Of a DNA stretch of 54,610 bases, positions 1,284 to 23,416 are shown piece by piece. Numbering within the stretch: the first letter of the stretch is position 1; each line of letters opens with the position of its first letter. This DNA is from Bdellovibrionales bacterium GWB1_55_8. Its GTDB lineage: Bacteria; Bdellovibrionota; UBA1018. The stretch spans positions 1-54,610 of the forward strand of contig MEPR01000051.1 of assembly GCA_001769835.1 (NCBI GenBank), given 5' to 3'. The notes under the pieces are model-generated. The model did not search any database. It was given only the letters and a program-made list of their open reading frames with translations, and had not been told where the DNA came from. The translations under genes were made by a program, and so were the position numbers.

Positions 1284-2384
1284 TCACCAGCTTAGTCCGA
1301 GATTGAACGCCGATGAAGTGGATTCAACGCTGGATCCAGCAATGTCTCCGTTCATTCTTGCGAAATCCAAAGACACTGTCAGGACAACCGGCTTCAAAGC
1401 ACGCGTATAGGACAACCCTATGGCCAGCTCCCGGCTGGGAAAGCGCAAGGCCAACCCCTCACTAGCGATGGGGGCCACTTTCGCATAAACGGAAACAGAA
1501 GAGCGGACGCTTACTTTTTTACTGAGCGTGGGAATGAACTGTGGCCCGGTAAGGTTCTGCAAGCCAAACGAATTCTTACCCGGCTCGACCGAGACCATCA
1601 TCGTCGTGTAGTAAAACCCGCCCCAAAACGTGAGACCCCAACCATTCGGAAGACCATCAAACCGATAGCCCAGGCTCATGCTCGCATCCAAAAACCTGAT
1701 CTCTGTATCTGGACGATTCGTCGACAGGGGAAAGAGAGTCAGTGCAGTCGACGCTCCAACCATCCAATTTGAAGCAAGCCCGGACCACGGCCATTCCCAG
1801 GGATTTTGAAATGACAGTTTGGTGGAAAGACTGGTTTGTTCAATTGGCTGTACGCCCGTTTCAGAATAACTCTGACGGCCCAGCCCCAATGTCGCCGAAT
1901 AGCGCGTCTTTTCCGGGTCAAGCACCTCTTTCCGGCGGGCGGCGCGGAAAACCTCCAGCCCATCGAACAAGACAACGAAATGAACTTCCTCGATCTCGCC
2001 AAACGGGCCAACCGCGTAAAGCAGCTCTTTAGTGATCTCGTCCTGAAGGACGATCCTCATCGAAAATTCGGAAGTCTGCGGGTCTAACACGATCGCACTA
2101 TTGCGATGCGTAAGCCCCCAGCCCTCACGATTCAACCGCCCCTGTAATATCACGGCTGGCTGGGAAAACTCCCCACTGTCATCGGTCTCCACTTCGAGCG
2201 TCTTGACCTTCCAACTGACAGAGCACCCTCCGGCAGAACACTCCTTGGGTTCGATGAGCTTGGCCTTCGTCCAACGGTCCGCAGCGGACAAAGGGGGCGC
2301 TTTCTCCATTTCCTGAGTCCCGGCTGCGCTTGCCGATAAAGCAGGAAAAGCAGCAAAAATCATCAGTGCTGCCCATCTATTCAT
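1284..2384 (-). CDS. Putative outer-membrane beta-barrel protein
   Basis: 366 residues with a signal peptide of about 20 residues (hydrophobic stretch ending A-S-A-A-G). A central region of roughly residues 30-150 is followed by a C-terminal half rich in alternating hydrophobic/polar strands with aromatic ends (for example G-L-T-F-W-G-G-F-Y-Y and A-F-N-L-G-L-S-W). It ends in Trp, as in many outer-membrane barrels. The ATG at 2384 overlaps the stop of the upstream LysM gene by four bases (ATGA), so the two are translationally coupled. I do not recognise a named family. The setting, with a TIG lipoprotein and a LysM protein next to a fibre gene, suggests a part in anchoring or displaying surface proteins, but that is inference. 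Confidence 0.7.
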   Translation of the reverse strand: MNRWAALMIFAAFPALSASAAGTQEMEKAPPLSAADRWTKAKLIEPKECSAGGCSVSWKVKTLEVETDDSGEFSQPAVILQGRLNREGWGLTHRNSAIVLDPQTSEFSMRIVLQDEITKELLYAVGPFGEIEEVHFVVLFDGLEVFRAARRKEVLDPEKTRYSATLGLGRQSYSETGVQPIEQTSLSTKLSFQNPWEWPWSGLASNWMVGASTALTLFPLSTNRPDTEIRFLDASMSLGYRFDGLPNGWGLTFWGGFYYTTMMVSVEPGKNSFGLQNLTGPQFIPTLSKKVSVRSSVSVYAKVAPIASEGLALRFPSRELAIGLSYTRALKPVVLTVSLDFARMNGDIAGSSVESTSSAFNLGLSW

Positions 2385-3124
2385 GGTGTAGCGACCTCAT
2401 TCAAATACGGGCGCAAAACGGGAAGTGCGGAGGCAGAAGGGTGCTTTACGAGCAACTCACTCGCGAACGCACGAGCCTCCTCCTCTTTTTTGAGCGACCT
2501 GAAAACGGCAAGCTCCAGAAGCCAGGCAGGAAGAAAAGCCGAATCCTGCTCTCGAATTTCACGCGCGCCCGAAAGGGCGGCTTCATAGTTTTTTTGACTG
2601 AAATCCTCACGAGCTTTGGCAAATGCGGTTTGAACATCCGTGATCTTGCGCAGCTCAACGGCCCGAGGGCTTTCCGGATTCCTGGCCATCTCGGTCTGGG
2701 TGCTTTTTTCGACCAAAGCCTCGAAAGTCGGCGGTGGCTTGTCCTCCGGGAGCTGTTTCTCTTCAGGCCGGGCTATCTCGACGGATGCAACTGACTTAGG
2801 CAGTCCGAAGTGCGCGCGCCAGTAGGCCAGAAGCAAGCCACGCCCTTGCTCGCGCGGCATCCCGGGGTGCCTCAGAATAAGCTTTTGTCCGGCACGAACC
2901 CGGTAAGGCGCGGGAATCCCGCTCCATTCGGCGAGTTCACGAAATGCGCCGCACTTTCCATAAAGCAACACGCCGATTTCGCAAAGCGTGGGGGCCTCAT
3001 CGCTGACCACGTGGATATCCTCGGCTCGAACCGAGACGGAAGATGCGATGAGGGCGCCAACGAAAACAATGAAAAACGCTCGCTTAATTCGAATCATCGA
3101 AATGAAGGGCCTCGCTGCCGACAA
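2381..3124 (-). CDS. Secreted LysM-like protein with C-terminal helical repeat
   Basis: Up to 247 residues. The first Met gives a long N-terminus overlapping the upstream gene by 41 bases. The Met at codon 10 (ATG at 3097) directly precedes a typical signal peptide (I-R-I-K-R-A-F-F-I-V-F) and is the more likely start. After the signal, about residues 35-85 resemble one LysM peptidoglycan-binding module (I-H-V-V-S-D...L-C-E-I-G, ending A-G-Q-K-L-I-L). The C-terminal 90 residues are helical and TPR-like (A-F-A-K-A-R-E-D-F, then Y-E-A-A-L-S-G-A). The protein should sit in the periplasm, holding peptidoglycan. It overlaps both neighbours, so the TIG, LysM and barrel genes form one tight unit. Confidence 0.72.
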   Translation of the reverse strand: MSAARPFISMIRIKRAFFIVFVGALIASSVSVRAEDIHVVSDEAPTLCEIGVLLYGKCGAFRELAEWSGIPAPYRVRAGQKLILRHPGMPREQGRGLLLAYWRAHFGLPKSVASVEIARPEEKQLPEDKPPPTFEALVEKSTQTEMARNPESPRAVELRKITDVQTAFAKAREDFSQKNYEAALSGAREIREQDSAFLPAWLLELAVFRSLKKEEEARAFASELLVKHPSASALPVLRPYLNEVATP

Positions 3125-3611
3125 TCAGTGAACGTCCTTGTGACTTGAGCAGTACCGGCCGTCCGACTTCGCCTATGGTGGATGTCATCATCCGGCCCGT
3201 CGACCGTGAAACTCCTCCACCACCGGAAATCGCAAATCCAGAAACCGGAACAAGGGAATCAATGTACGCAAATGCATCGGGCAGCTCGAAAACTTTCGCA
3301 TTCGGGTTTACCACTCTCACGGACACTCGCGACGGGGGTTGCGCTGGAGCCGTACAATAAACAGTACTTTCCGAAACGTATTGAATGTTCTCGCAACCCA
3401 TCTGGCCGAGACGAACCTCAGCCCCGTTCACGAAACCCGTACCGATGATCGCGATCTCCGTCGGCTTTTCCGAGGCTGCGATACTCGGAATGACTTTCAT
3501 GATTTTTGGCTGAGCCAAATTGGACGGATTCACCAGCTTGGCTTTCATACAGCCGCTCGCTAAAGGAAGAAGCACAAGGATGAGGAGCAGTACAGGACGC
3601 ATTCGATGCAT
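3084..3611 (-). CDS. TIG/IPT-domain lipoprotein
   Basis: 175 residues. A short hydrophobic signal ends in the lipobox L-A-S-G-C, giving a lipidated Cys near residue 21. Residues 38-115 match an IPT/TIG immunoglobulin-like fold: I-M-K-V-I-P-S-I at the start, I-I-G-T-G-F-V-N-G-A-E-V as the core G-x-G-F-x-x-G motif, then V-R-V-V-N-P. Such folds serve as protein-protein interaction modules on bacterial surfaces. No strong ribosome site is seen before the ATG at 3611; an internal Met at codon 4 is an alternative. The gene heads the TIG-LysM-barrel-PilZ run that follows the fibre/glycine-rich pair, with about 110 bases between them. Confidence 0.75.
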   Translation of the reverse strand: MHRMRPVLLLILVLLPLASGCMKAKLVNPSNLAQPKIMKVIPSIAASEKPTEIAIIGTGFVNGAEVRLGQMGCENIQYVSESTVYCTAPAQPPSRVSVRVVNPNAKVFELPDAFAYIDSLVPVSGFAISGGGGVSRSTGRMMTSTIGEVGRPVLLKSQGRSLIVGSEALHFDDSN

Positions 3612-9270: not shown

Positions 9271-10110
9271 ATGAGCAACGTTTTCGAGTACGCCGATTAT
9301 CGCAATTATCTCAGGGCGGTATTCCTGGAAAAAAAATCCAAGAACACGCGATTCTCCTATCGGGTATTCTCGCGGCTTGCGGGCTTCTCTTCGCCAAATT
9401 TCCTCAAGCTGGTCATCGAGGGACAAAGAAACCTTTCCTCCGAAAGCATTGCCAAGATTTCTGCTGCACTGAAACACAATCGCGAATCAGCCAGCTTCTT
9501 CCGTCACTTGGTTCTGATGAACCAGGCCACGAGCGCCGAAGAAAGAAACTCACACGCCGAGCAGGTCCTCAAATCCCGTCATTATCGGCAGCACCACCCA
9601 TTGAGCCGTGAACGATACGAGTACTACTCCCGATGGTACGTTGTAGCAGTGCGCGAGCTTGTGGATACAAAAGGATTCCAGGAGGACCCCGACTGGATCG
9701 CCCGGACAGTAACTCCCTCGATCACGGTGACCGAAGCCACTCAGGCACTCGAAATACTCAAGCGTCTGGAGCTTGTCGCTTCTAATGAAAACGGAAAACT
9801 GGTTCAGACAAGCCGGATCGTTTCAGCCGGCGATGAAGTCGCCTCAGTGGCGCTCGCGGAGTTTCACCGGCAGATGATTGATAAAGGACGCGAAGCGATC
9901 GACCGTTTCCCGTCACATGAGAGGGATATCTCGTCCGTCACCCTTGGCCTCTCAGCGGCAAACGTTATTAAGGTCAAGGAACTCATCCAGCGTTTTCGAA
10001 AACAGCTCCTGGAAATCGCGGAACATGATGCCCACGCGACACAGGTTTACGAAGTCAACTTTCAGTACTTCCCCCTTTCCAAAGGGGAAAAGGAAGGAAA
10101 CGAGTCATGA
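9271..10110 (+). CDS. TIGR02147 family protein
   Basis: 279 residues. The opening V-F-E-Y-A-D-Y-R-N-Y-L and the following F-S-Y-R-V-F-S-R-L-A-G-F-S-S-P-N-F-L-K-L are the hallmark of TIGR02147 (DUF4423-like), a family expanded in Fibrobacter and Bdellovibrio. Residues 25-70 look like a helix-turn-helix, and residues 125-190 like a second winged region with V-T-E-A-T-Q-A-L-E-I-L-K-R-L. It is therefore probably a DNA-binding regulator. TATACT lies at 9255-9260, only 10 bases before the ATG, and there is no ribosome site, so a leaderless or very short-leader mRNA is possible. The stop overlaps the next gene by four bases (ATGA), suggesting that the regulator and the lipoprotein are made together. 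Confidence 0.88.
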   Translation: MSNVFEYADYRNYLRAVFLEKKSKNTRFSYRVFSRLAGFSSPNFLKLVIEGQRNLSSESIAKISAALKHNRESASFFRHLVLMNQATSAEERNSHAEQVLKSRHYRQHHPLSRERYEYYSRWYVVAVRELVDTKGFQEDPDWIARTVTPSITVTEATQALEILKRLELVASNENGKLVQTSRIVSAGDEVASVALAEFHRQMIDKGREAIDRFPSHERDISSVTLGLSAANVIKVKELIQRFRKQLLEIAEHDAHATQVYEVNFQYFPLSKGEKEGNES

Positions 10111-12454: not shown

Positions 12455-13507
12455 ATGACCAATGAACATTCGAATTTCAGGTTTGGACGCCTTTTGTTGT
12501 TCGCCGCTCTGCTCAACATCGGGCCAATCACTTTAACGGCTTGCAACTCCACAGATCCTGGCACGCCGGGCGATGTAACCGATTCATTGATCCCGGCGCC
12601 GACGCCGACACCAACAGCCACTCCGACGGCAACACCGACACCTATTCCAACACCTACGAAAAAACCGACCCCTACAATCACGCCCAGTCCGACGCCGACG
12701 CCCATTCCGATTCCAACGGCAACTTTGTCACTCGGCAATATTCACAAACTCAAACTCAGGAATGACGCCCTCCAGGAGTATTATCTGTACCTTCCGACGG
12801 TTGGCGCCCAAAACGCGCCCATTTTCGTGACGGTCCACGGAATATCAGAAAACGTGGAACAGCACGCGACGTTGTATAAGTCGTTCGCCGAAAAGTATCG
12901 CGCGGTATTGATTGCTCCGCACTTTCCACAGACCCGGTACGACGATTACCAGCGCCTTGGGCGCGATGGAGCCCGGGCTGATCTCGCCCTGAAGAGCATC
13001 GTCAGCGAAGTTCGCGAACTCACAGGAGCGAGCAGCGGTAAATTTTATCTTTTCGGTTATTCAGGGGGTGGGCAATTCTGTCATCGATATGCCATGGCTC
13101 ATCCGGACGATATCGCGCGCTATGCGGTCGGCGCCGCGGGCTGGTACACATTCCCGGATACTAGCGTGGAATACCCGCAAGGTACGCTGAACACAGGTGA
13201 CCTTGAAAACGTGGTATTCGATCCTGCTCGTTACCTCAGAGTTCCTGGCGCCGTCTTTGTCGGCGATCTGGATACCGCGCTGGACTCATCGCTGAATCAA
13301 TCCGAGTCCATCAATCTGCAGCAGGGCTATACTCGCTTTGAACGCGGACAGCGCTGGATCGACGAGATGTCGGATGCCGCCCAGAACTCAGGACTGAACT
13401 CCCTGTTCGAATTCCACAGCCTGCCGGGTTGTGCTCACTCATTTTCATCCTGCATGACAACGAGCAAAATGGGCGAGGGCGTGTTCAAATGGTTTTTTGG
13501 CTACTAA
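12455..13507 (+). CDS. Lipoprotein alpha/beta-hydrolase (esterase/depolymerase type) with Pro-Thr linker
   Basis: 350 residues. A signal peptide ends in the lipobox L-T-A-C (Cys30). A linker of about 45 residues rich in T-P/P-T pairs (48-90) separates the lipid anchor from the catalytic domain. The nucleophile elbow is G-Y-S-G-G-G (Ser203), with V-G-D-L-D-T giving a candidate acid and G-C-A-H-S-F the catalytic His. The oxyanion region is V-T-V-H-G-I. This layout resembles PHB-depolymerase/feruloyl-esterase-like hydrolases. It has a paralogue lacking the lipoprotein part at 14119-14970. A strong hairpin terminator follows two bases after the stop codon. The substrate is unknown; the long linker suggests it reaches out from the membrane. 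Confidence 0.82.
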   Translation: MTNEHSNFRFGRLLLFAALLNIGPITLTACNSTDPGTPGDVTDSLIPAPTPTPTATPTATPTPIPTPTKKPTPTITPSPTPTPIPIPTATLSLGNIHKLKLRNDALQEYYLYLPTVGAQNAPIFVTVHGISENVEQHATLYKSFAEKYRAVLIAPHFPQTRYDDYQRLGRDGARADLALKSIVSEVRELTGASSGKFYLFGYSGGGQFCHRYAMAHPDDIARYAVGAAGWYTFPDTSVEYPQGTLNTGDLENVVFDPARYLRVPGAVFVGDLDTALDSSLNQSESINLQQGYTRFERGQRWIDEMSDAAQNSGLNSLFEFHSLPGCAHSFSSCMTTSKMGEGVFKWFFGY

Positions 13508-14118: not shown

Positions 14119-14970
14119 TCAATTCCCGTTCCGCTGTTCGCTTTTATTGCCTGAAAAAAATAGCCATTCGAAAACTCGCCGCCCCATCTCGCCGCGGTCC
14201 ATGCTGCGCGAAAAGGAGTGCCTGCACCTGGGAAGTACGTGAAACTCAAATCGCGCACCGAGCTTTGAACGCTGAGCAGCAGAATTCATGGCATCCACCC
14301 AGCGTCTGCCACGCTCGAATCGGTTGAGGCCCTGATGTTCAGAAATTTCCGGCGACTTGTTCAGGGAACGCCCCTGCCGAATATCCCGATCACCGACCAT
14401 GACTGCGGCCCTGACCCGCAGAAAATCGTTCATATTGAAAGAAGCTCCGGTCAGGCCCCCGTTTCCGAGAAGGCCACGTGGATATCTCACGTCCCCATCG
14501 GGGAAGGTGTACCAGCCCGCCGCGCCAACCACATAGGCCATCACCCGCTCCGGGTAAGCCATCGCGTATCGATGCACAAATTGACCGCCACCTGAGTAAC
14601 CAAAAAGATAGATACCGTCGGAGTTCGCGGAGGTCATCTCACCGACTTCGCGAACAACAGCATTTAACGCAAGATCCGCCCGGACGCCGCGCCTGCCCCG
14701 CCCCAATCGCTGGTAATCCTTGAAACGAGGAAGAGAAAAGCGGGGAGCGATCAAGACAATGCCGTGCTTCTCGGCAAGCTCCCTGAACGACTCAGCGTGC
14801 TCTTTTGCATTTCCTGATATCCCGTGGACGGAAACAAAGATCGGCGCGCCTGATGTCCCGGACGTCGGCAGATAGAGGTAGTAACTCAAACACGAATCAT
14901 TCCTGGAATTCAGCTTGAGTATCCTGCCTGGTGGCGGTGATTCTGATTGAGCACGTGACATGTCGGCCAC
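14119..14970 (-). CDS. Alpha/beta-hydrolase, paralogue of the esterase lipoprotein
   Basis: 283 residues. It aligns along its length with the catalytic domain of the protein at 12455-13507: V-S-V-H-G-I-S-G-N, K-D-Y-Q-R-L-G-R-G, G-Y-S-G-G-G-Q-F-V-H-R-Y-A-M (Ser126) and G-A-A-G-W-Y-T-F-P-D are shared, with R-C-R-H-S-F as the His motif. It lacks the signal peptide, lipobox and Pro-Thr linker, so it should stay in the cytoplasm. It starts six bases after the stop of the DUF1611-like gene and is probably co-transcribed with it. An intracellular hydrolase paired with a P-loop enzyme suggests a role in metabolising the product of this locus; that is inference. Confidence 0.8.
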   Translation of the reverse strand: MADMSRAQSESPPPGRILKLNSRNDSCLSYYLYLPTSGTSGAPIFVSVHGISGNAKEHAESFRELAEKHGIVLIAPRFSLPRFKDYQRLGRGRRGVRADLALNAVVREVGEMTSANSDGIYLFGYSGGGQFVHRYAMAYPERVMAYVVGAAGWYTFPDGDVRYPRGLLGNGGLTGASFNMNDFLRVRAAVMVGDRDIRQGRSLNKSPEISEHQGLNRFERGRRWVDAMNSAAQRSKLGARFEFHVLPRCRHSFSRSMDRGEMGRRVFEWLFFSGNKSEQRNGN

Positions 14971-14976
14971 GGCCCA

Positions 14977-16029
14977 TCACGCGGCGCCGGCCAGGTTCGG
15001 CCGACTATTCCCTGTCGGTATTTGCAGCATATTGGCTATACCAGGCGTACTCAGTGAATCGGTACTTATGATGGGTAGCAGCGTTTCAGCTGTAGCCTCT
15101 CGCATCGCAAGGGGCGAGCTTGTCAGAACCCCCGACACCCCCATCACGGGCAAGCCCTTGGCCAGAAGCCACCTGACACCCGCTGCGGCACCCAGCGAAT
15201 CGAGCGCGGCAAAAATCAGCGCGTTGACAGTCCGCCTGAAAATCTCGGAATTAAGCAAAGAAGATGTCTCCTGCTGAAATATGCCATCCGCCACTTCGAA
15301 CACGATCACATCCACTTCCGAGTCACGGCAGTGTCCGATCAGCGCGACAAAGGCAGCTTCCACTTTGGCGGGATTCGCCAGGTAAGTGGTTGAAAGCCCT
15401 ACGTCAGAAAAGTCCAGAACGACGACGGCTCCAGCGTCCCGCATGGACCACAGATCCCCGCCCGATCCCGTGCCGGTCACCTTTGCGGCACCGACCCTGA
15501 GCCCCGCATTCGTCAAGCCTCGTATCATCTGAGTTGCCGTTTCCGTTTTACCGGAGTTCATCGAAGTACCCACAACCCCCAATATGTACGGGGCTGGTTT
15601 GGTCTCCCCTTTGTGGGCCGGGAGCGCAAAGTCCTCCAGATTAAGGACATCGCCGTCGGCGTTCCCGATCAGCGCGATCGGGGTGATCTTTGTCGGAGTG
15701 GTCATCTTGACGTGCTTGCAAACGAATTTCGCCGCTATACCGCCCGACGCCACCATATGACAGGGCCCAAGGGACTCGGGAACAAATGCTTCATATTGAT
15801 CGGGCGCGTAGCGATTGCCATACGCGAGGATAATCTCGTCCCCGGGAAACAACCTCGCTTTACGCCCGGATTCCAGTTCAATATTCTTGTGCTGACCCAA
15901 TTCGTCGACGCGGGCAAAAACAAGATCGCCCGATCTCGGAGCGACGTGATCCGTCAAGAGACGGCCCATCTTGCCGATGGAAATCCGCCTTGTCGCGAAA
16001 GCCTTCTTCGCGCGCGCCAATCTGGACAT
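14977..16029 (-). CDS. DUF1611-like P-loop NTPase
   Basis: 350 residues from the ATG at 16029, preceded by AAGGGTGGG at a good distance; the frame could begin at 16104, but those codons look non-coding. The N-terminal 130 residues form a small domain. The C-terminal part holds the Walker-A-like G-T-S-M-N-S-G-K-T and then K-V-T-G-T-G-S-G-G-D-L-W, D-A-G-A and D-F-S-D-V-G-L-S-T-T-Y, all typical of DUF1611-related proteins. One DUF1611 member (DgcN) has been described as a D-glutamate N-acetyltransferase in a D-Glu catabolic route, so action on amino acids or peptides is plausible but unproven here. It is divergent from the operon holding the secreted His/Cys proteins and the ATP-grasp enzyme. 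Confidence 0.72.
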   Translation of the reverse strand: MSRLARAKKAFATRRISIGKMGRLLTDHVAPRSGDLVFARVDELGQHKNIELESGRKARLFPGDEIILAYGNRYAPDQYEAFVPESLGPCHMVASGGIAAKFVCKHVKMTTPTKITPIALIGNADGDVLNLEDFALPAHKGETKPAPYILGVVGTSMNSGKTETATQMIRGLTNAGLRVGAAKVTGTGSGGDLWSMRDAGAVVVLDFSDVGLSTTYLANPAKVEAAFVALIGHCRDSEVDVIVFEVADGIFQQETSSLLNSEIFRRTVNALIFAALDSLGAAAGVRWLLAKGLPVMGVSGVLTSSPLAMREATAETLLPIISTDSLSTPGIANMLQIPTGNSRPNLAGAA

Positions 16030-16193
16030 GTCGTTCCCACCCTTGATTTCATGAATCATGATGAATATCTCTCCGTTCGCAGTGTCCCGCACTCTGCAAC
16101 CCATGTACCGCCAGCAGGCTGCCGCGCGTATTGCGTTCGAAGCGCGTCATCTGTTCTCTAGAGACCAGGCCTACGTTGACCGAATACCTTAAT

Positions 16194-17234
16194 ATGCGCC
16201 ACTACATGGAACCCATCATGTTTCTTCTGCTTGCCTTGCTATCCATCCAACCAACGTCCTCGTCCGCAGCGTTGACTGAAGAACCCAGGGGAAATGGGCG
16301 ATTCTCCTTCCTTGATGAATTGGAAAAACATCCGGATCCATGGACTCAGGAAACATCAGGTGAAGATGCACATCTGACGGGGGACGCGGAAGATAACTTG
16401 CCGGAGCTAAGCATCGATCTTACCCCGTTCTACCGGGACTTCGCGCAAGACGGTATTGTCAATATCTACATGGGGTATGGCTACGAGGCCTATTCTCCTG
16501 GTAAAGGCGCTCAGCTCTACAAAATGCTGAACTTATTGGGATCAAAAGAAGACCTCGAGCTCCTCTTTGCACCGCTTGAACGGGATCAGCAAACCGTCCG
16601 ATTCCGCGACGTGAGACGCGGAATCGACTACCAGATACAAATTGGACCTGAGCGGGACGATTACAGGCGTGCCTTTTCCAAGTACGAAGTGGTCATGTAC
16701 ACCGGCCACTCCCGCTACGGGCGCGGACCTGCTTTTGGCACGTTCTGGAACTACTACAGAATGGGAGACCGGTTCGAAACCATCGAGGTGGACACAAGGA
16801 ATCCATATTTTGATTTTGAGCCAATCGTCCTGACGGAACGTTTTCCACTCCTGAAAATTCTGCTGGGTGGATTTCCGTTTCCGTATCAGTACCGCGGGCA
16901 GCAGACAAACACCTCTTATCTTCCAAGCACGTCCTACACGAAAAACATTCCCGGCGGCAATGCGGACCTTGCCACAACGAAATTCATTCCCGGCCGCCAG
17001 ATCCTGTATTTTCATTCCTGCAAAAACAGGAAGTACTGGCGGAATGCCATTCGCTCCGTACTGACGGATCCCGCCAGGAAAGTGGTTTTCGGCACCAGCA
17101 ATGACTCATTCGGGGGCGCCCGACCCGACTCCGTCCTCATCATCTCAATTGTTCGGCAGCTTGCCCGCACCGAAGAGATCGTGAGCGACCTGAATGCCAC
17201 GCAGGACTGCAATCAATGCTTTACGAGTTACTGA
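16194..17234 (+). CDS. Secreted protein with clan-CD-like His/Cys signature, copy 1
   Basis: 346 residues from the ATG at 16194, which begins a signal peptide (hydrophobic core F-L-L-L-A-L-L-S-I, cleaved near S-S-A-A); no clear ribosome site precedes it. It is a paralogue of the next gene. Two conserved blocks stand out. One is a hydrophobic strand then G-H-S (Y-E-V-V-M-Y-T-G-H-S-R-Y-G-R-G, His172); the other is a hydrophobic strand then S-C (I-L-Y-F-H-S-C-K-N, Cys276). Strand-His and strand-Cys in this order and spacing resemble clan CD cysteine peptidases (caspase, CHAT, separase), although those usually have H-G. It ends D-C-N-Q-C-F-T-S-Y with a C-terminal C-x-x-C. Protease activity is inference. 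Confidence 0.7.
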   Translation: MRHYMEPIMFLLLALLSIQPTSSSAALTEEPRGNGRFSFLDELEKHPDPWTQETSGEDAHLTGDAEDNLPELSIDLTPFYRDFAQDGIVNIYMGYGYEAYSPGKGAQLYKMLNLLGSKEDLELLFAPLERDQQTVRFRDVRRGIDYQIQIGPERDDYRRAFSKYEVVMYTGHSRYGRGPAFGTFWNYYRMGDRFETIEVDTRNPYFDFEPIVLTERFPLLKILLGGFPFPYQYRGQQTNTSYLPSTSYTKNIPGGNADLATTKFIPGRQILYFHSCKNRKYWRNAIRSVLTDPARKVVFGTSNDSFGGARPDSVLIISIVRQLARTEEIVSDLNATQDCNQCFTSY

Positions 17235-17256
17235 TCCCACAAGCCCAGGAGGTTCA

Positions 17257-18252
17257 ATGTACCATCGTGTTCCAGTCATCCTTTCAGTGATCGCGAGCTT
17301 CTGGTTCGGCATCGCGAGCTCAAAAGCAGAACCTCACAGCTTTGATTTCCTGGATCCAATCGACCAACAACCCACGGCATGGGAGCCCGAGCGCAGCAGG
17401 GATTCGCGCGAGACACAGGATCCGATCGAGGTTGACCTTCGTCCTTATTATCGTGAGTTCACGCGAGACGGAATAATCAATATCTACATCGGTTACGGTG
17501 TCGAGGCCTATTATCCCGAAAGGTCCGCACAGATCTTTGAAATGCTGAAGGCTTTGGGAAAACACCATGAACTCGCCCTCACCAATTGGTCCCTGAGCGA
17601 CGACAAAAGAATTGTCTCATTTCGTGATTCGCTGAATGGCGTTCGCTTCAATATCACCGTCGAACACGAAAGAAACCAGTTCATTAACGCCTTCTCGACA
17701 CATGAACTGGTGATGTATCATGGCCATTCCCGCAGGGGTAAAGGCCCTGCTTTCGGCGCATTCGAGAACTATTTTCGAATGGGACGAAAATACAAATCGC
17801 TTGAAGTGGATACGAGAAATATCTACTTCCGCGACGAGCCGATACTTAAGACCGATCTTTACCCACCACTGACAGAGTATTTCTTCGGCCAGCCGTTCCT
17901 TTATCAGTACAGAGGGCAGAAGAACAAGAAATCAAAACTTCCTCCTACCTCCTATACAAAAAACATCCCCGGCCTGGATGTGGACCTCGCAAAGACGCGC
18001 TTCCTGCCGGGAAGGCAGTTGTTGTATTTTTATTCGTGCAAAAACCGGAAATACTGGCGCGAATCCATTCGCTCCCTTTTCCCAGACCCGAATCAGAAAC
18101 TGGTCTTCGGAACATTCAAAGACGGCTTTGGCGGAACGAAGCCGGAAGCACTGATGATCATTTCTGTCGTCCGACAACTCCAGGATTCCTTCAACGTTCT
18201 TGAACTATTGAACGCATCCAAAGACTGCGACCATTGCTTTACAAGTTATTAG
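17257..18252 (+). CDS. Secreted protein with clan-CD-like His/Cys signature, copy 2
   Basis: 331 residues. The ATG at 17257 has AGGAGG six bases upstream and starts a signal peptide (to about residue 24), so this start is well supported. It is collinear with the preceding gene: P-Y-Y-R-E-F-T-R-D-G-I-I-N-I-Y-I-G-Y-G, E-L-V-M-Y-H-G-H-S-R-R-G-K-G-P-A-F-G (His157), T-S-Y-T-K-N-I-P-G, and L-L-Y-F-Y-S-C-K-N-R-K-Y-W (Cys261). Both copies end in D-C-x-x-C-F-T-S-Y. The N-terminal 40 mature residues differ. The pair probably arose by tandem duplication and may form a heteromer. It is 22 bases after copy 1 and 11 before the DUF11-like gene, in one operon. Confidence 0.75.
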   Translation: MYHRVPVILSVIASFWFGIASSKAEPHSFDFLDPIDQQPTAWEPERSRDSRETQDPIEVDLRPYYREFTRDGIINIYIGYGVEAYYPERSAQIFEMLKALGKHHELALTNWSLSDDKRIVSFRDSLNGVRFNITVEHERNQFINAFSTHELVMYHGHSRRGKGPAFGAFENYFRMGRKYKSLEVDTRNIYFRDEPILKTDLYPPLTEYFFGQPFLYQYRGQKNKKSKLPPTSYTKNIPGLDVDLAKTRFLPGRQLLYFYSCKNRKYWRESIRSLFPDPNQKLVFGTFKDGFGGTKPEALMIISVVRQLQDSFNVLELLNASKDCDHCFTSY

Positions 18253-18263
18253 AGGGAGCCTGA

Positions 18264-18749
18264 ATGAGTTTACGAAACACCGTCTACCGATCTATTTTGA
18301 CTCTCATCGCCTGTTCCGGCTTTTGGGCAATTCCAAGCAGCCTGGCGGCAGAATCGGCTCCCGACCCGCTGGATCCCTGTCCGTTGAAAATAAGGCTGAT
18401 CGGCCCTCGTGAACTGCCAACCGGAGCCGTCGCGACGTATCTGATCAAGCTGGAAAACAAGAGCAGCTGCCAGCTTTCCGGAGCTTCGCTCAAAGACTAT
18501 TTCCCGGACGCCTCAAGGTTCCGGAGGTCCGACCCCGTACCCACGAAGGTCCAAAAGCACCCCTTACCGAAAGGACCCGAACTGACTTGGGAAGGCCTGG
18601 AGCTTGATCCCGGGCAGGTCGCCTTGTTCGAAATCGGAATGCAGGTTCGCGGCAGCGCGAATGTCGGACGAAAAAGAATCTGCGTCCTGCACCCCGTTTT
18701 GATCGGCGGAAAAACCTGCAAGAACTATCAAATATGGACAATGCCCTGA
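18264..18749 (+). CDS. Secreted DUF11-like (immunoglobulin-fold) protein
   Basis: 161 residues, GAGGGAG ahead of the ATG. The signal peptide ends near S-L-A-A. The mature part is one DUF11/CARDB-like beta-sandwich: I-G-P-R-E-L-P-T-G-A-V-A-T-Y-L-I-K-L-E-N-K-S, then L-S-G-A-S-L-K-D-Y-F-P, L-T-W-E-G-L-E-L-D-P-G-Q-V-A and F-E-I-G-M-Q-V-R. Cysteines at the start, middle and end could be paired. Such modules are usually structural or adhesive. It overlaps the start of the ATP-grasp gene by 16 bases, which ties these secreted proteins to the cytoplasmic biosynthetic enzyme in one transcript. Confidence 0.72.
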   Translation: MSLRNTVYRSILTLIACSGFWAIPSSLAAESAPDPLDPCPLKIRLIGPRELPTGAVATYLIKLENKSSCQLSGASLKDYFPDASRFRRSDPVPTKVQKHPLPKGPELTWEGLELDPGQVALFEIGMQVRGSANVGRKRICVLHPVLIGGKTCKNYQIWTMP

Positions 18750-20305
18750 AAATGGCTGTCTGGACTAGCGTAAGCGAGGATGTGGCACCAAGCCCGAGAA
18801 TGATCATCCGCGCCGCGGAAGCCCGGGGCATTCCATGGACCTACAGGAAAGACCTCGATCTGCTGCAGCTTGGACAGGGCTCCCAGCGTCGCTGGATTCG
18901 AGCGATGACCACCTGCCTCGAAAGCGATGTGGCGGTTGACCTGGCTCAAGACAAGCAGGTCACGAAATCACTCCTCCAGTCGTCCGGCATTCCGGTTCCG
19001 CGGGGATTTTCCGTGAAGAGCGTCGAATCTGCGGTGGCTGCGGCCGAACAGTTGAATGGCCCTTTTGTCGTGAAGCCGGTAGACGGTCACAAGGGGAAGG
19101 GCGTTTCCACGGGACTGAACACAACCGAGCAGGTGATTCAAGCGTACAAATATGCGTCCCGTTACGCTCGCGCCATCCTCATTGAGGAGCAGCTGCTCGG
19201 CCGTGATTTCCGCGTTCTCGTGGTAAATGGAAAAGTGTTCGCCGCTGCGGAAAGGATCCCGGCGCATGTAACGGGAGACGGCGTCCACTCAATCGCGGAG
19301 TTGATCGACATTGAAAACCGAAACCCTTTGCGAGGGTCCGGGCGCGATAAACCGATGACCCGGCTCAGGCTCGACGCCATTGCGGACGCATTTTTAAGCA
19401 AAGCCGGCAAAAATCGCGAAGATGTCCCGCCAGCTGGATCAATTGTGACACTCAGAGGAAACGCTAATCTGTCCCAGGGAGGATGCGCTGACGACGTCAC
19501 TGATGGAATTCACCCGGAAGTACGAAATATCTGTGAGAGGGCTGCACGCATCCTGGGATTACCCCTATGCGGAATTGATCTCATTCTCCGGGACGTTTCT
19601 CGTCCACTATCTGATCAAAGAATAGGAATCATTGAAGTGAACGCAGGACCTGGCATCCGGGTGCATCACTTCCCACGACGAGGGCCTTCGCGTGATGCCG
19701 GAGCCGCGATCCTGGACTATCTCTATCCAGATCACGGGGACGGCAGAATTCCTGTCTTCGGAGTATTTGGTTCCGCTGACATCGCCCTCGTCATCGAAGA
19801 AGAACTGAGAAGGACAGGGCTTCGCGTGGGACTTGCGAACCCAAAGGGCACCTTTGTCGATTCCAAAATAGTTTCCAGCACGAGCACGATCAATCCGGCG
19901 CACCTCCTCCTCGGAGATCCGGGCGTGGACGCGGCGATATTCGAGACAACTCTCTCCCCGACGCACGACCTCCCGGAACTCGATATAGCGGTGCTTGCCA
20001 GTTCTGCCGTGGAGCCGGGATCAATCATCGCTCGCTTATTGCCAGCGGGAAAACTGGTCGTGAATGCGGACGATATGGAACTCGTGAATCATGAGCGGAT
20101 CGTGAACTATCCCGTTCAAAAGCTGGTGTTAGTCTCTGCGCAACCGAATTCGCCTTCGGTCCAGGATCACCTGGCGCGCGGCGGTTCAGCTTTCTTTCCG
20201 CCAGAGAGGCAAATGATTGCACATTCGTACCGTCTCGAATCGATTGCCGCGATTGCGGCTTGCAGGTCCATTCCCTCTAGACCGAACAGATTGCACGCGC
20301 GTTGA
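18734..20305 (+). CDS. Cyanophycin-synthetase-like ATP-grasp ligase with a degenerate Mur-like domain
   Basis: 523 residues. After a CphA-type linker (R-G-I-P-W-T-Y-R, then L-L-Q-L-G-Q-G, 31-49) comes a full ATP-grasp domain (72-330): D-K-Q-V-T-K-S-L-L, F-V-V-K-P-V-D-G-H-K-G-K-G (111-123), E-E-Q-L-L-G-R-D-F-R and the Mg-binding E-V-N-A-G-P-G (301-307). It then enters the Mur-ligase half at G-R-I-P-V, but where CphA has G-T-N-G-K-T-T this protein has G-S-A-D-I-A-L (346-352). The P-loop is lost and the domain is cut short. The N-terminal CphA domain is also absent; CphA is normally near 870 residues. It probably adds amino acids using ATP. A separate protein at 21992-23416 keeps the intact Mur half. 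The 3' end overlaps the convergent ABC gene by 29 bases. Confidence 0.85.
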   Translation: MDNALKMAVWTSVSEDVAPSPRMIIRAAEARGIPWTYRKDLDLLQLGQGSQRRWIRAMTTCLESDVAVDLAQDKQVTKSLLQSSGIPVPRGFSVKSVESAVAAAEQLNGPFVVKPVDGHKGKGVSTGLNTTEQVIQAYKYASRYARAILIEEQLLGRDFRVLVVNGKVFAAAERIPAHVTGDGVHSIAELIDIENRNPLRGSGRDKPMTRLRLDAIADAFLSKAGKNREDVPPAGSIVTLRGNANLSQGGCADDVTDGIHPEVRNICERAARILGLPLCGIDLILRDVSRPLSDQRIGIIEVNAGPGIRVHHFPRRGPSRDAGAAILDYLYPDHGDGRIPVFGVFGSADIALVIEEELRRTGLRVGLANPKGTFVDSKIVSSTSTINPAHLLLGDPGVDAAIFETTLSPTHDLPELDIAVLASSAVEPGSIIARLLPAGKLVVNADDMELVNHERIVNYPVQKLVLVSAQPNSPSVQDHLARGGSAFFPPERQMIAHSYRLESIAAIAACRSIPSRPNRLHAR

Positions 20306-21995
20306 AAAAGCGCGACGCTGGCCCGTTTGCGCCAAATACAGTCTGAGGCGCCCCCGTTTCAACGATTGCACCGTCTTCCATGTACCAGACGGTATCCGCC
20401 GATCGCGCGAAATTCATGTTATGCGATACCATAAGCACCGTACCGGGATAATTCGCCATCACCTTCTCGAGAACAGAAGAGGAGCGCGGGTCCAGATTGG
20501 CATCCGCTTCATCCAGCAAAAGAATGGAAGGAGAACCGACGAGCGCGCGCGCCAGGGATATCCGCTGACGTTGTCCAAGCGAAAGGTTGGCGCCCCCCTC
20601 CGTAATTCGCGTCCGCAGGCCGTCCGGCAGTTCTTTTATAATTTCCTCCACGCCACAGAGCTTCAGGACTCGGGCAATCTCATCCTCGGGAGCCTCGGGC
20701 CAGCGATAGCGGAGGTTCTCCTCGATCGGCCCGCGTAGCAGGGGAAGGTCCGGACTCACCATTCCGAGCCTGTGCCTCAGTGATGCAAGGCTGTGGTCTG
20801 ATAACTTCTGGCCATCGAGCAGGATCTGACCTTCATCAGGATCAGCAAGCCGCGCCGCCAGGCTGAGGAGGGTCGACTTTCCCGACCCGTTCGGACCGAT
20901 AACGGCGATTCGAGTACCGGGATGCGCGAAAACGGAGATTCCTCGCAAAATCTTGCCGAGGCTCACGCCGCGAAACTCCAGCTTTCCCGAACCAGGCAGG
21001 AGATCAGGAGCAAAGGGCGTATCAACGATCTTACGGGACGTCCGTATGAATTCCACGATCTTACCATTTGAAACGCGGGCCCCGTGCCATAAAACGAAGG
21101 CCGAACTCAAATCGCGAAGCAGTGGCGTGACCAAACCGACAAGCGACATGGCCGCAACTACAGTCCCGCCAGTAGCTCTACCCAACTGAACTTCGTAAGC
21201 GCCAACCAGCAGAACCATTGCGGTCGCCAGGGAAGCCGTTGCATCCCCGATCGACCTGAGCTGAGCACTTGCTCGGGCTTGCGTGATCATGGCTTCTTTC
21301 AGTTTCTCCCCCTGCTTCGCGATCCGTTCGCGTTCACGACCCGACTGGCCGAACGCTTGCACGACGGCGATCGAAGATATCTTATCGTTTACGTTCGCCG
21401 CGAAGATCGACTGACGCCGTCTGGATTCGACAACCGCCTGATGAAGATGTTTTCCCCAAGCGAAGCCCAGGAAACAGCCCACTATGAGGATGGAGGTGGC
21501 GGAGATCGCCATTGCTCGATTCATCCACGCAAGGCCCGCCATCGCGATGACCGTGCTCGCGGTGGCCACGACAATGCGCGCCAGCCCGAGACTGATCCAT
21601 AAACGAAGTACTTTCAAATCGCCAATGAACCGAAGCATCACTCCGCCACGGCTACGCTGCTGGAAGAACCTCACGGATGTATTGCTGATGTGCTCAAAAA
21701 GTCGGATTCGAAGCTGATTTCCATAGTCCTGACCCATGCGCTCCGCATCCACTCTCTCAGCCATTCGAAGCCAGGCTACAAGCAGAGCAGCAAGCGCAAG
21801 CCCCGCTCCATATCTGGCGAAAGTGATCCATTCGACGAACTGTTTTTTATGAGTCAGGTCAAAAGCGAGGTGCATCATTCGTGAGGCAAAAAGGGCAGCG
21901 AAGGCCTGAGTAATCCCGTTCAAGATCAGTTTGGCAAATAGCCAGTATCTTCCCTGCTCCATGATTCCGACAACGCGCTGCTCCCGCGGGATCAT
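20277..21995 (-). CDS. ABC exporter (fused membrane and ATP-binding domains)
   Basis: 572 residues from the ATG at 21995, preferred because GGAGG lies seven bases upstream and because it forms an ATGA overlap with the Mur-ligase gene; the frame is open to 22061. The membrane domain (about residues 10-310) has six predicted helices. The nucleotide-binding domain has Walker A G-P-N-G-S-G-K-S-T (367-375), signature L-S-L-G-Q-R-Q-R, Walker B S-I-L-L-L-D-E-A-D and the switch V-S-H-N. This is the layout of a type IV ABC exporter half-transporter (MsbA/peptide exporter class), working as a homodimer. No peptidase C39 domain is present. Translational coupling to the Mur-like ligase implies that it exports the ligase product; the cargo is unknown. 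Confidence 0.88.
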   Translation of the reverse strand: MIPREQRVVGIMEQGRYWLFAKLILNGITQAFAALFASRMMHLAFDLTHKKQFVEWITFARYGAGLALAALLVAWLRMAERVDAERMGQDYGNQLRIRLFEHISNTSVRFFQQRSRGGVMLRFIGDLKVLRLWISLGLARIVVATASTVIAMAGLAWMNRAMAISATSILIVGCFLGFAWGKHLHQAVVESRRRQSIFAANVNDKISSIAVVQAFGQSGRERERIAKQGEKLKEAMITQARASAQLRSIGDATASLATAMVLLVGAYEVQLGRATGGTVVAAMSLVGLVTPLLRDLSSAFVLWHGARVSNGKIVEFIRTSRKIVDTPFAPDLLPGSGKLEFRGVSLGKILRGISVFAHPGTRIAVIGPNGSGKSTLLSLAARLADPDEGQILLDGQKLSDHSLASLRHRLGMVSPDLPLLRGPIEENLRYRWPEAPEDEIARVLKLCGVEEIIKELPDGLRTRITEGGANLSLGQRQRISLARALVGSPSILLLDEADANLDPRSSSVLEKVMANYPGTVLMVSHNMNFARSADTVWYMEDGAIVETGAPQTVFGANGPASRFFNARAICSV

Positions 21996-23416
21996 AATCG
22001 GGCCTCCGTCCTGGATGGCGTTGCACTGAACTCGGCCAGAATTCCAGCAACGGAACTCCATTCGTCGTGAAAGAGCACAGTCAAGTCATCGGATCCCATG
22101 CGTTCAATACAGTTCCGCAAAGCATCCGCACCATTTAGAATGATTTCCACATTTGTCGTTTCCGCTTCTTCTCGGATCGCCGCAGCCATGATTTCGGCCA
22201 ATTCACCGGGCGCTCTCCCACGAAGATCTTCATCCTCCCTCAATACGATGTTAGGAAAATAGCGGGCTGCGATGCGAGCGGAACTCCGCAGGAGCGAATC
22301 CGCACGGTCACCTGGAAGTCCTAAAATGCAGATGACAGTTGAGGCATGCCTCGTCTTCACCCATTCCCCGATAACGCGGATGGCTTCCGGATTATGGCCG
22401 TAATCAACAAGCAAGTGCCCTCGTTTCAGACGGTAAAGGTTCATCCTGCCTCTATTGTGCGTCTCATTTTCGAAAGTGCGTATGCTCACGGCAACCCCGG
22501 ATGGGGATCGGCCGAGTGCGCGGACAGCTGCTATCGCGGCAAGTGCATTGGAAAGTTGGAAGAGAGCGGTACCTCCCAGCGACGAGCCGACTTCATGGGC
22601 AGGCAGAAGCGCACGCTCTCCTTCCGGGCTCTCCGGGTTTCCTGGACCGGCCTCCATGATAACGCCGTCCTTCAGGTAATAAGCGCGCCCTCCTCTTTGA
22701 AGGTGCGACCGAACGAACTGATTTCCAGGACGGCGTGAGAATAGAACAAGACTCTTCGGACCTTGCTCGAAACCACCGGAACCCGCGAGCCTCACCAGCA
22801 GATCGTCATCGGCATTGAGGACCAGCGTTCCGTCTGAAAGAACTCGATCAGCCACGACTTTCTTGATCCGAATCAGATCGTCCATTGTTCGGATACCATC
22901 CTGGCCTATGTGGTCCGGTTGAATATTCGTCAATACTGCGACATCGGCGGCATCGTAACCCAGGCCTGCCCGAACAATCCCTCCACGGGCCGTCTCAAGA
23001 ACAGCTACCTCGACCGAAGCGTCCGACAAGATCCTTCTTGCGGAGCGCGGTCCTGTCATATCGCCGGGTTTGACGCAAACACCCCGGATAAAGATCCCGT
23101 CGGTACTGGTCATTCCTACCGAGCTCCCGGACTCTGACAGGAGGTGACTGATCATTCGGGTGACGGTGGTTTTTCCATTGGTTCCCGTGATCGAAACGAC
23201 CGGGATCCGGAATGCGGCGGAATTCAGAGTGGCGAACTCCTGCGCGATTTGCTTTACACGCGCCATCGAATCGATGCGAACGCGGCGACCCTTCGTTCCA
23301 TACCCGATCTGCAGGGACATATCGCGATGGAAAAACCATGGAATACCCGAGCGACTGGCTGTTTCCAGAACTTCGCGAAGAGCGGGATCGAGCTGAGGAT
23401 TGCTGATACGCATCAC
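21992..23416 (-). CDS. Mur-ligase-like enzyme related to the C-terminal half of cyanophycin synthetase
   Basis: 474 residues; GTG at 23416 or ATG at 23413. It opens with a remnant of the CphA linker (S-G-I-P-W-F-F-H-R-D, then L-Q-I-G-Y-G, 23-40) and goes straight into a Mur ligase core: I-P-V-V-S-I-T-G-T-N-G-K-T-T (P-loop 78-84), S-T-D-G-I-F-I-R-G, D-M-T-G-P-R-S-A-R-R, E-T-A-R-G-G-I-V-R, T-N-I-Q-P-D-H-I-G and L-V-D-Y-G-H-N-P-E-A. All of these are hallmarks of the CphA ligase half. The ATP-grasp half is missing and is supplied in trans by the convergent gene at 18734-20305, whose own P-loop is destroyed. The gene is co-translated with the ABC exporter. Reaction inferred: ATP-dependent peptide or isopeptide bond formation. 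Confidence 0.87.
   Translation of the reverse strand: MMRISNPQLDPALREVLETASRSGIPWFFHRDMSLQIGYGTKGRRVRIDSMARVKQIAQEFATLNSAAFRIPVVSITGTNGKTTVTRMISHLLSESGSSVGMTSTDGIFIRGVCVKPGDMTGPRSARRILSDASVEVAVLETARGGIVRAGLGYDAADVAVLTNIQPDHIGQDGIRTMDDLIRIKKVVADRVLSDGTLVLNADDDLLVRLAGSGGFEQGPKSLVLFSRRPGNQFVRSHLQRGGRAYYLKDGVIMEAGPGNPESPEGERALLPAHEVGSSLGGTALFQLSNALAAIAAVRALGRSPSGVAVSIRTFENETHNRGRMNLYRLKRGHLLVDYGHNPEAIRVIGEWVKTRHASTVICILGLPGDRADSLLRSSARIAARYFPNIVLREDEDLRGRAPGELAEIMAAAIREEAETTNVEIILNGADALRNCIERMGSDDLTVLFHDEWSSVAGILAEFSATPSRTEARL

Follow-up and report, generated by a model that had tools for sequence, protein, structure and literature searches.

The two ligase halves of cyanophycin synthetase (CphA) lie on two separate genes in a Bdellovibrionales bacterium, where they form part of a conserved block with genes for an ATP-binding cassette (ABC) exporter, hydrolases and secreted proteins. 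The window analysed here is the whole stretch of 54,610 nucleotides at positions 1 to 54,610 of contig MEPR01000051.1 (assembly GCA_001769835.1) of Bdellovibrionales bacterium GWB1_55_8, a genome called G000 below; the block is also found in Bdellovibrionales bacterium GWA1_52_35 (G095), which belongs to another genus and, like the first, is an uncultured Bdellovibrio-like bacterium. The split, taken together with the exporter neighbourhood, suggests that an enzyme of intracellular nitrogen storage has been re-used for something sent out of the cell. In the reading favoured here, to which a rough probability of a little under one half is assigned, repurposed and parted CphA ligases make an amino-acid conjugate that is exported, with tailoring and envelope steps. 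In window coordinates, the block consists of the following parts:

12455 to 13507, plus strand: Z, a lipoprotein-like esterase (polyhydroxybutyrate-depolymerase-like alpha/beta hydrolase) with a Pro/Thr-rich linker, paralogue of A
14119 to 14970, minus strand: A, an alpha/beta hydrolase in which no signal peptide is evident (by eye), encoded just downstream of B
14977 to 16059, minus strand: B, a MobB/DUF1611-type P-loop enzyme whose N-terminal region is conserved
16060 to 16193, no strand: intergenic region from which B and the sec1-sec2-DUF11-F genes diverge, deduced from the gene starts
16194 to 17234, plus strand: C (sec1), a secreted GHS/SC protein with a signal-like N-terminus (by eye)
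17257 to 18252, plus strand: D (sec2), a secreted GHS/SC protein ending in DCxxCFTx(Y/F), as seen in a six-member alignment
18264 to 18749, plus strand: E, a small DUF11-like protein with a signal-like N-terminus
18734 to 20305, plus strand: F, a CphA-derived ATP-grasp ligase with a degenerate Mur remnant
20277 to 21995, minus strand: G, the ABC exporter, with membrane and ATPase domains (PF00664, PF00005) and no peptidase domain matched
21992 to 23416, minus strand: H, the Mur ligase half derived from CphA, in which the P-loop and the middle and C-terminal (lid) domains are intact and the ATP-grasp domain is absent

These open reading frames (ORFs) sit where a preliminary description of the window, made from the sequence alone, had placed them, with three refinements: (i) the starts of B and sec1 are set at a conserved MIHE/MIHD and at 16194, respectively; (ii) the exporter starts at 21995 instead of 22061, since the H and ABC genes overlap by 4 bp as ATGA, the ABC start lying inside the stop codon of H; and (iii) the unit reaches to 12455, since Z lies within the conserved block. 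The genes for E and F overlap by 16 bp, and those for F and the exporter overlap tail-to-tail by 29 bp.

That F and H each correspond to about half of a CphA, F keeping ATP-grasp without the Mur P-loop and H keeping the Mur ligase without ATP-grasp, is borne out by both model scores and residue alignment. Against the CphA model TIGR02068 (cut-off 850 bits), F scores 453.8 bits with its best stretch at 152-550, and H scores 446.2 bits with its best stretch at 476-860; neither half reaches the score above 850 bits of a single-chain CphA1, in which N domain, ATP-grasp and Mur are joined in one chain. F, which is without the N domain, covers the model to position 674 of 862 and has no Mur_ligase_C match in the Pfam scan, while H matches PF08245 and PF02875. 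The CphA linker, a 'GIPW...LQxGxG' segment, is present in both halves, as had been described: the F homologue of G095 (residues 12-52) and H (residues 8-47) are 41% identical over 41 residues.

The active sites were aligned to the solved Trichodesmium enzyme (chain 7wac, numbering checked), with residue roles taken from PMC9427784 (this and the other papers given by PMC number are cited from excerpts). The Mur P-loop, GTNGKTT in CphA1, aligns in F as GS---AD. H retains GTNGKTT as well as positions 520, 522 and 558, the remaining Mur sites that were compared (K499, T500, T522 and E558 are kept), and its G095 homologue likewise has GTNGKTT, T522 and E558. In F, nine of the ten ATP-grasp positions considered (215, 220, 261, 267, 309, 323, 394, 396, 450 and 458) are kept: Lys220, Lys261, Arg309, Arg323, Asn394, Ser396, Glu450 and Arg458 are identical, and Glu215 is replaced by Asp, which is counted here as kept. 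The HxxEH motif of the N domain, found in many but not all CphA1 enzymes, is in none of the six CphA-derived proteins of G000 and G095, whereas all 16 full-length CphAs of the phylum sample keep it.

Phylogenetic trees place both halves with the same full-length enzymes. In the ATP-grasp tree (22 rows), F joins the full-length CphAs of three genomes, G108, G236 and G270, with support 95/89; in the Mur tree (21 rows), H joins the same three, with support 96/92. Dt_Mur and Microvirga in the former, and Roseateles_NM and Legionella_NM in the latter, were left out as long branches; of these, Dt_Mur remained among the rows of the Mur tree and was flagged there, together with Dd_NM, for odd composition. 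The shared placement of F and H fits a duplication followed by complementary loss, so that the origin put forward in the preliminary description is supported, at the level of sequence, for the Bdellovibrionota lineage.

Full-length CphA is uncommon around the two genomes. It was not found in G000 (all 21 candidates scored) or in G095 (13 of 26 scored), so the halves have no intact paralogue there among the candidates scored; an intact CphA elsewhere in the genome was one of two findings that the preliminary description had named as counting against it, and the other, close homologues without a shared neighbourhood, was likewise not made. At E 1e-40, CphA matches occur in three of 55 genomes of the order, one of them the window's own, and a full CphA in one, G108. 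Across the phylum, where the three best candidates per genome were scored, 16 of 290 genomes have a full CphA over the cut-off. The 29 genomes with a match at E 1e-60 are made up of these 16, G000 and G095, G055, and ten with ATP-grasp-only matches. These last (L060-L069; E 1e-61 to 1e-70) could belong to other ATP-grasp families. The G055 match (L075, 7078-8226) is a Mur-like frame of 382 amino acids, 31% identical to H, that ends at most 72 bases from the contig end and could represent a full-length CphA truncated there.

G095 has the block in synteny, with the same order H-ABC / F-DUF11-sec / B-A-Z. Protein identities between the two genomes are 58% for H, 78% for the exporter, 57% for F, 47% for the DUF11-like protein, 68% for sec, 72% for B, 69% for A and 74% for Z. 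Both genomes have the ATGA overlap of H and the exporter, and also the tail-to-tail overlap of F and the exporter (29 and 32 bp). For the eight block genes, nonsynonymous differences (pN 0.15-0.33) are far below synonymous ones (pS 0.70-0.77, saturated). In F, identity is higher over the ATP-grasp part (64-70%) than over the Mur remnant (42-44%). Two differences can be mentioned: the second secreted copy, sec1, is present in the window block, and the H of G095 has 663 amino acids, with an extra N-terminal region that matches the N region of a further CphA-like protein at 43 bits (26.5% identity over 200 residues).

This second protein, present in both genomes, has 632 amino acids and consists of an N-like domain, ATP-grasp and a Mur remnant without P-loop. 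Its gene is convergent with DUF11-like and sec genes, on contig C72 (L009) in G000 and on L018/L021 in G095. The C72 protein covers TIGR02068 to position 623 of 862, and its G095 homologue has no Mur_ligase_C match. In the ATP-grasp tree, the C72-type pair falls just outside the group of F, G108, G236 and G270 (wider group 90/85); a sister pairing of F with the C72 type was not recovered, nor was it rejected (p-AU 0.10). The second unit of G095 lies about 3.5 kb from Z, while on C72, which has 18,975 bases, no match to B, A or the exporter was found. Together the two genomes have four ATP-grasp genes that strongly resemble CphA (E<=1e-40), each of which adjoins a sec-DUF11 pair; an extra sec gene of G095 (L020) has no neighbour matching the DUF11-like protein or the ATP-grasp proteins F and C72. 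A scan of whole-genome contigs returned two strong loci, both of GWA1_52_35, and three weak deltaproteobacterial ones, the window's own genome possibly lying outside that scan.

The neighbours of the two halves can be characterized to different degrees. B had been described as a DUF1611-like P-loop enzyme. Its P-loop (GTSMNSGKT) stands, and it passes the MobB model PF03205 (28.1 bits, cut-off 26.6), but it does not reach the cut-off of DUF1611 itself (PF07755, 16.2 against 25 bits). An AlphaFold model of B from two sequences is too poor to name a fold (mean predicted local distance difference test, pLDDT, 43.2), and Foldseek with this low-confidence model returned P-loop NTPases of various kinds, with dethiobiotin synthetase near the top. 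Both A and Z match NCBIfam NF050058 below its cut-off (E 1.9e-15 and 1.9e-14, respectively); A has GYSGG and other conserved hydrolase residues, and in Z an LTAC lipobox was read by eye. In PADLOC, a search for defence genes, the nine proteins gave matches for the ABC protein only, in its ATPase part or with low scores. Upstream of the block lie genes for a DUF4423 protein (9271-10110) and a beta-propeller-domain protein (PF09826, 10611-12389).

B occurs in two of the 290 phylum genomes, the window's own included, and has homologues in eight plasmid records. In seven of these the gene next to B encodes an A-family hydrolase, namely in Microvirga ossetica, Paracoccus albus, P. liaowanqingii, P. 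marcusii (with a broken B), Sulfitobacter and a Tritonibacter species represented by two records. In five of the eight, two of them from one species, an ABC exporter of 507-558 amino acids directly follows B. The record without A is that of Priestia megaterium, with a distant B homologue (24%, L038 4899-5960), ATP-grasp genes nearby on both sides and a cluster that includes a gene of the PEP-mutase (phosphoenolpyruvate mutase) family. Searches with A point to the same pairs: among the best 30 of 120 plasmid records, the six top scores (105-125 bits, the next being 86) are neighbours of B, and the seventh such neighbour, from Microvirga ossetica, has 76 bits among the matches listed. The exporter carries no specific signal of this kind, since it has no plasmid match at E 1e-60 and matches in 1,556 plasmid records at E 1e-35.

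In Microvirga ossetica, B, an A-like gene, an ABC gene and a CphA-type fusion lie within about 11.5 kb. The fusion (L043 10691-13705, on a plasmid) has 1004 amino acids and joins a CphA-type N region (below the Pfam cut-off), a CphA-type ATP-grasp domain and a PGA_cap (CapA) domain; the genes beside it encode a tetratricopeptide repeat (TPR) protein, HlyD, the ABC protein, a B-like protein (48% identical to B) and the A-like hydrolase. CapA-type proteins are part of poly-gamma-glutamate capsule systems, and the fusion with CapA leans towards an exported amide. At the position of His267, the fusion has Lys, as F does.

The two secreted proteins of the window are 52% identical to each other and belong to a family nearly confined to G000 and G095 (two of 55 genomes in the order; three of 290 in the phylum, the third match being weak and over 40 residues; the window's own genome is included in both counts). 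The GHS and SC motifs are invariant in six members, and DCxxCFTx(Y/F) at the very C-terminus is almost invariant across them; proteins with this C-terminus are encoded in the window at 17257-18252 and 16194-17234, on L009 at 16690-17778 and on L021 at 2373-3449. This terminus could serve as a disulfide or as a recognition tail. In cysteine peptidases of clan CD, a His follows one strand and a Cys follows a later strand; from motif order alone the secreted proteins might be called clan CD-like, as they had been. The strands come from a low-confidence AlphaFold model of sec2, built from five close rows (an eight-row alignment with distant relatives misregistered the Cys region), whose mean pLDDT of 40.7 is too poor to name a fold; Foldseek found no PDB fold match for it at E<=0.001. 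Five family members gave no Pfam match, and PDB sequence searches, whether started from the family or from a distant relative, brought no convincing match.

Those distant relatives are three secreted-looking proteins from deltaproteobacterial metagenome-assembled genomes (MAGs; L023-L025), which have the same GHS motif and an ASC 26 residues further on, a spacing that resembles that of some clan CD peptidases. Two were scanned (L024 and L025) and carry C-terminal proprotein-convertase P-domains. Profile comparison aligned 34 and 41 columns, round the GHS motif only, so that homology with the distant relatives is limited to that region. As regards E, no DUF11 match (PF01345) was found in Pfam at E up to 1; the C72 paralogue of E scores 19.1 bits (E 0.0017), below the cut-off of 24.6.

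Taken together, these observations can be arranged into the following scheme, in which the substrates, the order of steps, the joint action and the roles of B, A, Z, the secreted and the DUF11-like proteins are those that we infer. A Bdellovibrionota CphA would have been duplicated and its two ligase activities parted. F would activate a carboxyl with ATP and add an amino acid, like the ATP-grasp domain of CphA, and H would join an amino acid to a carboxyl via the Mur reaction. Acting in trans on one small intermediate, both would yield an amino-acid conjugate, or a short isopeptide, which the cell does not store as cyanophycin. The conjugate may then be tailored by B and the cytoplasmic esterase A and exported by the ABC transporter coupled to H, while the GHS/SC pair, the DUF11-like protein and the esterase lipoprotein Z would act on the product or anchor it in the envelope. 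That a product is made, exported and processed, as the preliminary description proposed, is the most likely reading of the gene context; for the export step it gains from unrelated plasmids on which an esterase/DUF1611-like pair adjoins ABC exporters. A more specific version is held only tentatively, namely a two-gene, trans-acting line whose exported product would be an aspartyl-type isopeptide of a new class. It would be served by a dedicated DUF1611-like/esterase pair, which is also found next to exporters in alphaproteobacteria, and by a dedicated secreted GHS/SC protein that has the DUF11-like protein as its partner on the cell surface.

Several points weigh against an exported conjugate made by F and H together. 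In F, Lys takes the place of the catalytic His267 of CphA1, and in the C72-type paralogues Gln does (in the C72 protein and its G095 homologue, Arg458 is also Gln). The H267A variant of CphA1 served as an inactive G-domain control (PMC9262961) and had lowered activity (PMC9427784). The chemistry or substrate of F may thus differ, or its activity may be low; the change to Lys, shared with the Microvirga fusion, is the strongest sign in the sequence of a differing chemistry or substrate. The H-ABC pair occurs once per genome and the sec-DUF11-ATP-grasp unit twice, so that F need not work with H, and the block is known from two MAGs only. On the plasmid side, the stretches surrounding the seven A-B pairs yielded no CphA-like ORF except in Microvirga, which means that the A-B pair does not require CphA. 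The Microvirga ABC protein matches G in the ATPase part only (166 amino acids). The exporter is a generic one: the sole B-neighbouring ABC among the best 30 of the 1,556 records is that of Sulfitobacter (186 bits, against 181 for others), and the window exporter fails the model for CphA-associated ABC transporters. Finally, a recognisable cyanophycinase was reported in only 658 of 1,614 CphA1 genomes (PMC10206079), so that its absence alone is weak evidence against cyanophycin; this figure lowered our confidence slightly.

Among five genomes tested, cyanophycinase is matched in G108, G236 and G270, the nearest relatives with a full CphA, and was not found in G000 or G095; with MAG completeness of about 96% and 92%, absence from both through gaps is unlikely. 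IadA-type matches are strong in the same three genomes (that of G108 below the curated cut-off), while G000 has none and G095 two marginal ones, the best at 9.8e-5. The gene order is cphA-iadA-cyanophycinase in G236 and G270, and in G108 these genes are close together. IaaA (PF01112) was found in none of the five and does not discriminate. From these gene contents, the block is probably not for cyanophycin storage.

The alternative that survives best is nevertheless a two-enzyme storage pathway, in which H would make beta-aspartyl dipeptides, F would polymerise them as CphA2 does, the polymer would remain intracellular and the neighbours would be incidental. F and the C72 protein are without the Mur P-loop and lid, which are named features of CphA2 (PMC9427784), H could make such a dipeptide, the Asp-binding residues N394, S396, R323 and R458 are retained in F, and many CphA1 genomes have no recognisable cyanophycinase (PMC10206079). 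Yet His267 is changed, cyanophycinase is present in the nearest full-CphA relatives and not found here, and H overlaps an exporter gene in both genomes. Besides, F and the C72 protein are far nearer to CphA1 chains (300 and 293 bits) than to PDB entry 7ta5 (186 and 184 bits), named glutathione synthase in the PDB, which we take to be a CphA2 structure. Intracellular storage is thus considered unlikely.

Rather unlikely, too, is that B, A and the exporter, perhaps with Z, form an export and tailoring module for an unrelated metabolite, F and H being mere neighbours with different purposes. Such independence would fit the plasmids of Paracoccus, Sulfitobacter and Tritonibacter, where A-B pairs come with ABC exporters and the stretches read hold no CphA-like ORF; it would also fit the second sec-DUF11-ATP-grasp unit of G000, which lies on another contig with no B, A or ABC match. 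An unrelated module does not fit well with the 4-bp overlap of H and the exporter in both genomes, with the Microvirga cluster of B, A-like, ABC and CphA-ATP-grasp/CapA genes, or with a block intact across two genera, in one of which no more than about 3.5 kb separates the second unit from Z.

By analogy with RimK-like ATP-grasp enzymes, which tag the tails of proteins, F-type enzymes might extend or tag the conserved C-terminus of the neighbouring secreted proteins, with H serving separately. The constant association of the four ATP-grasp genes with sec-DUF11 pairs is in line with this, as are the last residues of the six secreted proteins, almost invariant to the very end, and the action of the CphA ATP-grasp site on a C-terminal carboxyl (PMC9427784). 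Nevertheless, the secreted proteins have signal-like N-termini and F has none (by eye), so the modification would be needed before export; the third sec gene of G095 has no ATP-grasp neighbour matching F or C72, and the Cys pair may be a structural disulfide. This makes tagging improbable. Most improbable of all is that F and H are decayed, functionless CphA paralogues: each half has lost one ligase site, HxxEH is in none of the six derived proteins against 16 of 16 full-length ones and the Mur remnant of F is just 42-44% identical between genomes, but frames are open in both genera with pN far below pS, the losses are complementary with most residues of each retained site conserved, and the overlap of H with the exporter is conserved.

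If the exported conjugate is real, cyanophycin-synthetase domains, known from storage polymers, can be separated and put to new use in making something for export. CphA halves accompanied by an exporter, a DUF1611-like protein and an esterase would then offer a search handle for possibly unrecognised amide-linked natural products or surface polymers, and the block would provide a defined setting for probing the function of DUF1611-like P-loop enzymes.

In comparison with known systems, the closest is CphA1 (TIGR02068), from which F and H derive by sequence and tree and of which each half retains most catalytic residues; the differences are the two polypeptides, the lack of HxxEH, the replaced His267 and a genome in which no cyanophycinase or strong IadA match was found. 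CphA2, a CphA with a working ATP-grasp site only and without the Mur P-loop and lid (PMC9427784), is reported as cyanobacterial (PMC9262961; PMC10206079). F and the C72 protein resemble it in having ATP-grasp without that P-loop and lid; they differ in being nearer to CphA1 than to 7ta5 by bit score, in their link to secreted proteins and, for F, in the missing N domain. The CphA-associated ABC transporter (NF052233) also stands beside CphA-type genes, but the window exporter scores 181.1 bits against a cut-off of 880 and is better matched by MsbA-type models.

Stand-alone Mur halves with an N-terminal region and no ATP-grasp occur on plasmids of Legionella adelaidensis, Roseateles sp. XES5 and Deinococcus deserti; in the stretches read, none adjoins an ABC exporter of this kind. 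That of Legionella adelaidensis (L034 7548-9416) keeps HxxEH and lies with a cyanophycinase and an IaaA-type gene, an RND (resistance-nodulation-division) efflux pair being downstream, and that of Roseateles sp. XES5 (L032 7614-9419) follows cyanophycinase and cphA. Like the block, the Microvirga cluster has a CphA-type ATP-grasp domain with Lys for His267, an ABC protein, an A-like hydrolase and a homologue of B (48% identical), but there the ATP-grasp is joined to a poly-gamma-glutamate-capsule domain and no ORF in the stretch matches H, the secreted or the DUF11-like proteins. In the open-access literature, the matches listed (titles and abstract starts) include neither a split CphA beside an exporter nor CphA halves combined with an exporter, a DUF1611-like protein, esterases and secreted proteins, and the excerpt of PMC2922099 holds nothing on cyanophycin. 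The preliminary description had held that no such system was known. This stands for the combination in the literature listed and does not for its components, since CphA2, NF052233 and the stand-alone Mur halves are known; with CphA2 and those Mur halves as known parallels, what is new is the association of CphA halves with an exporter, a DUF1611-like enzyme, esterases and secreted proteins.

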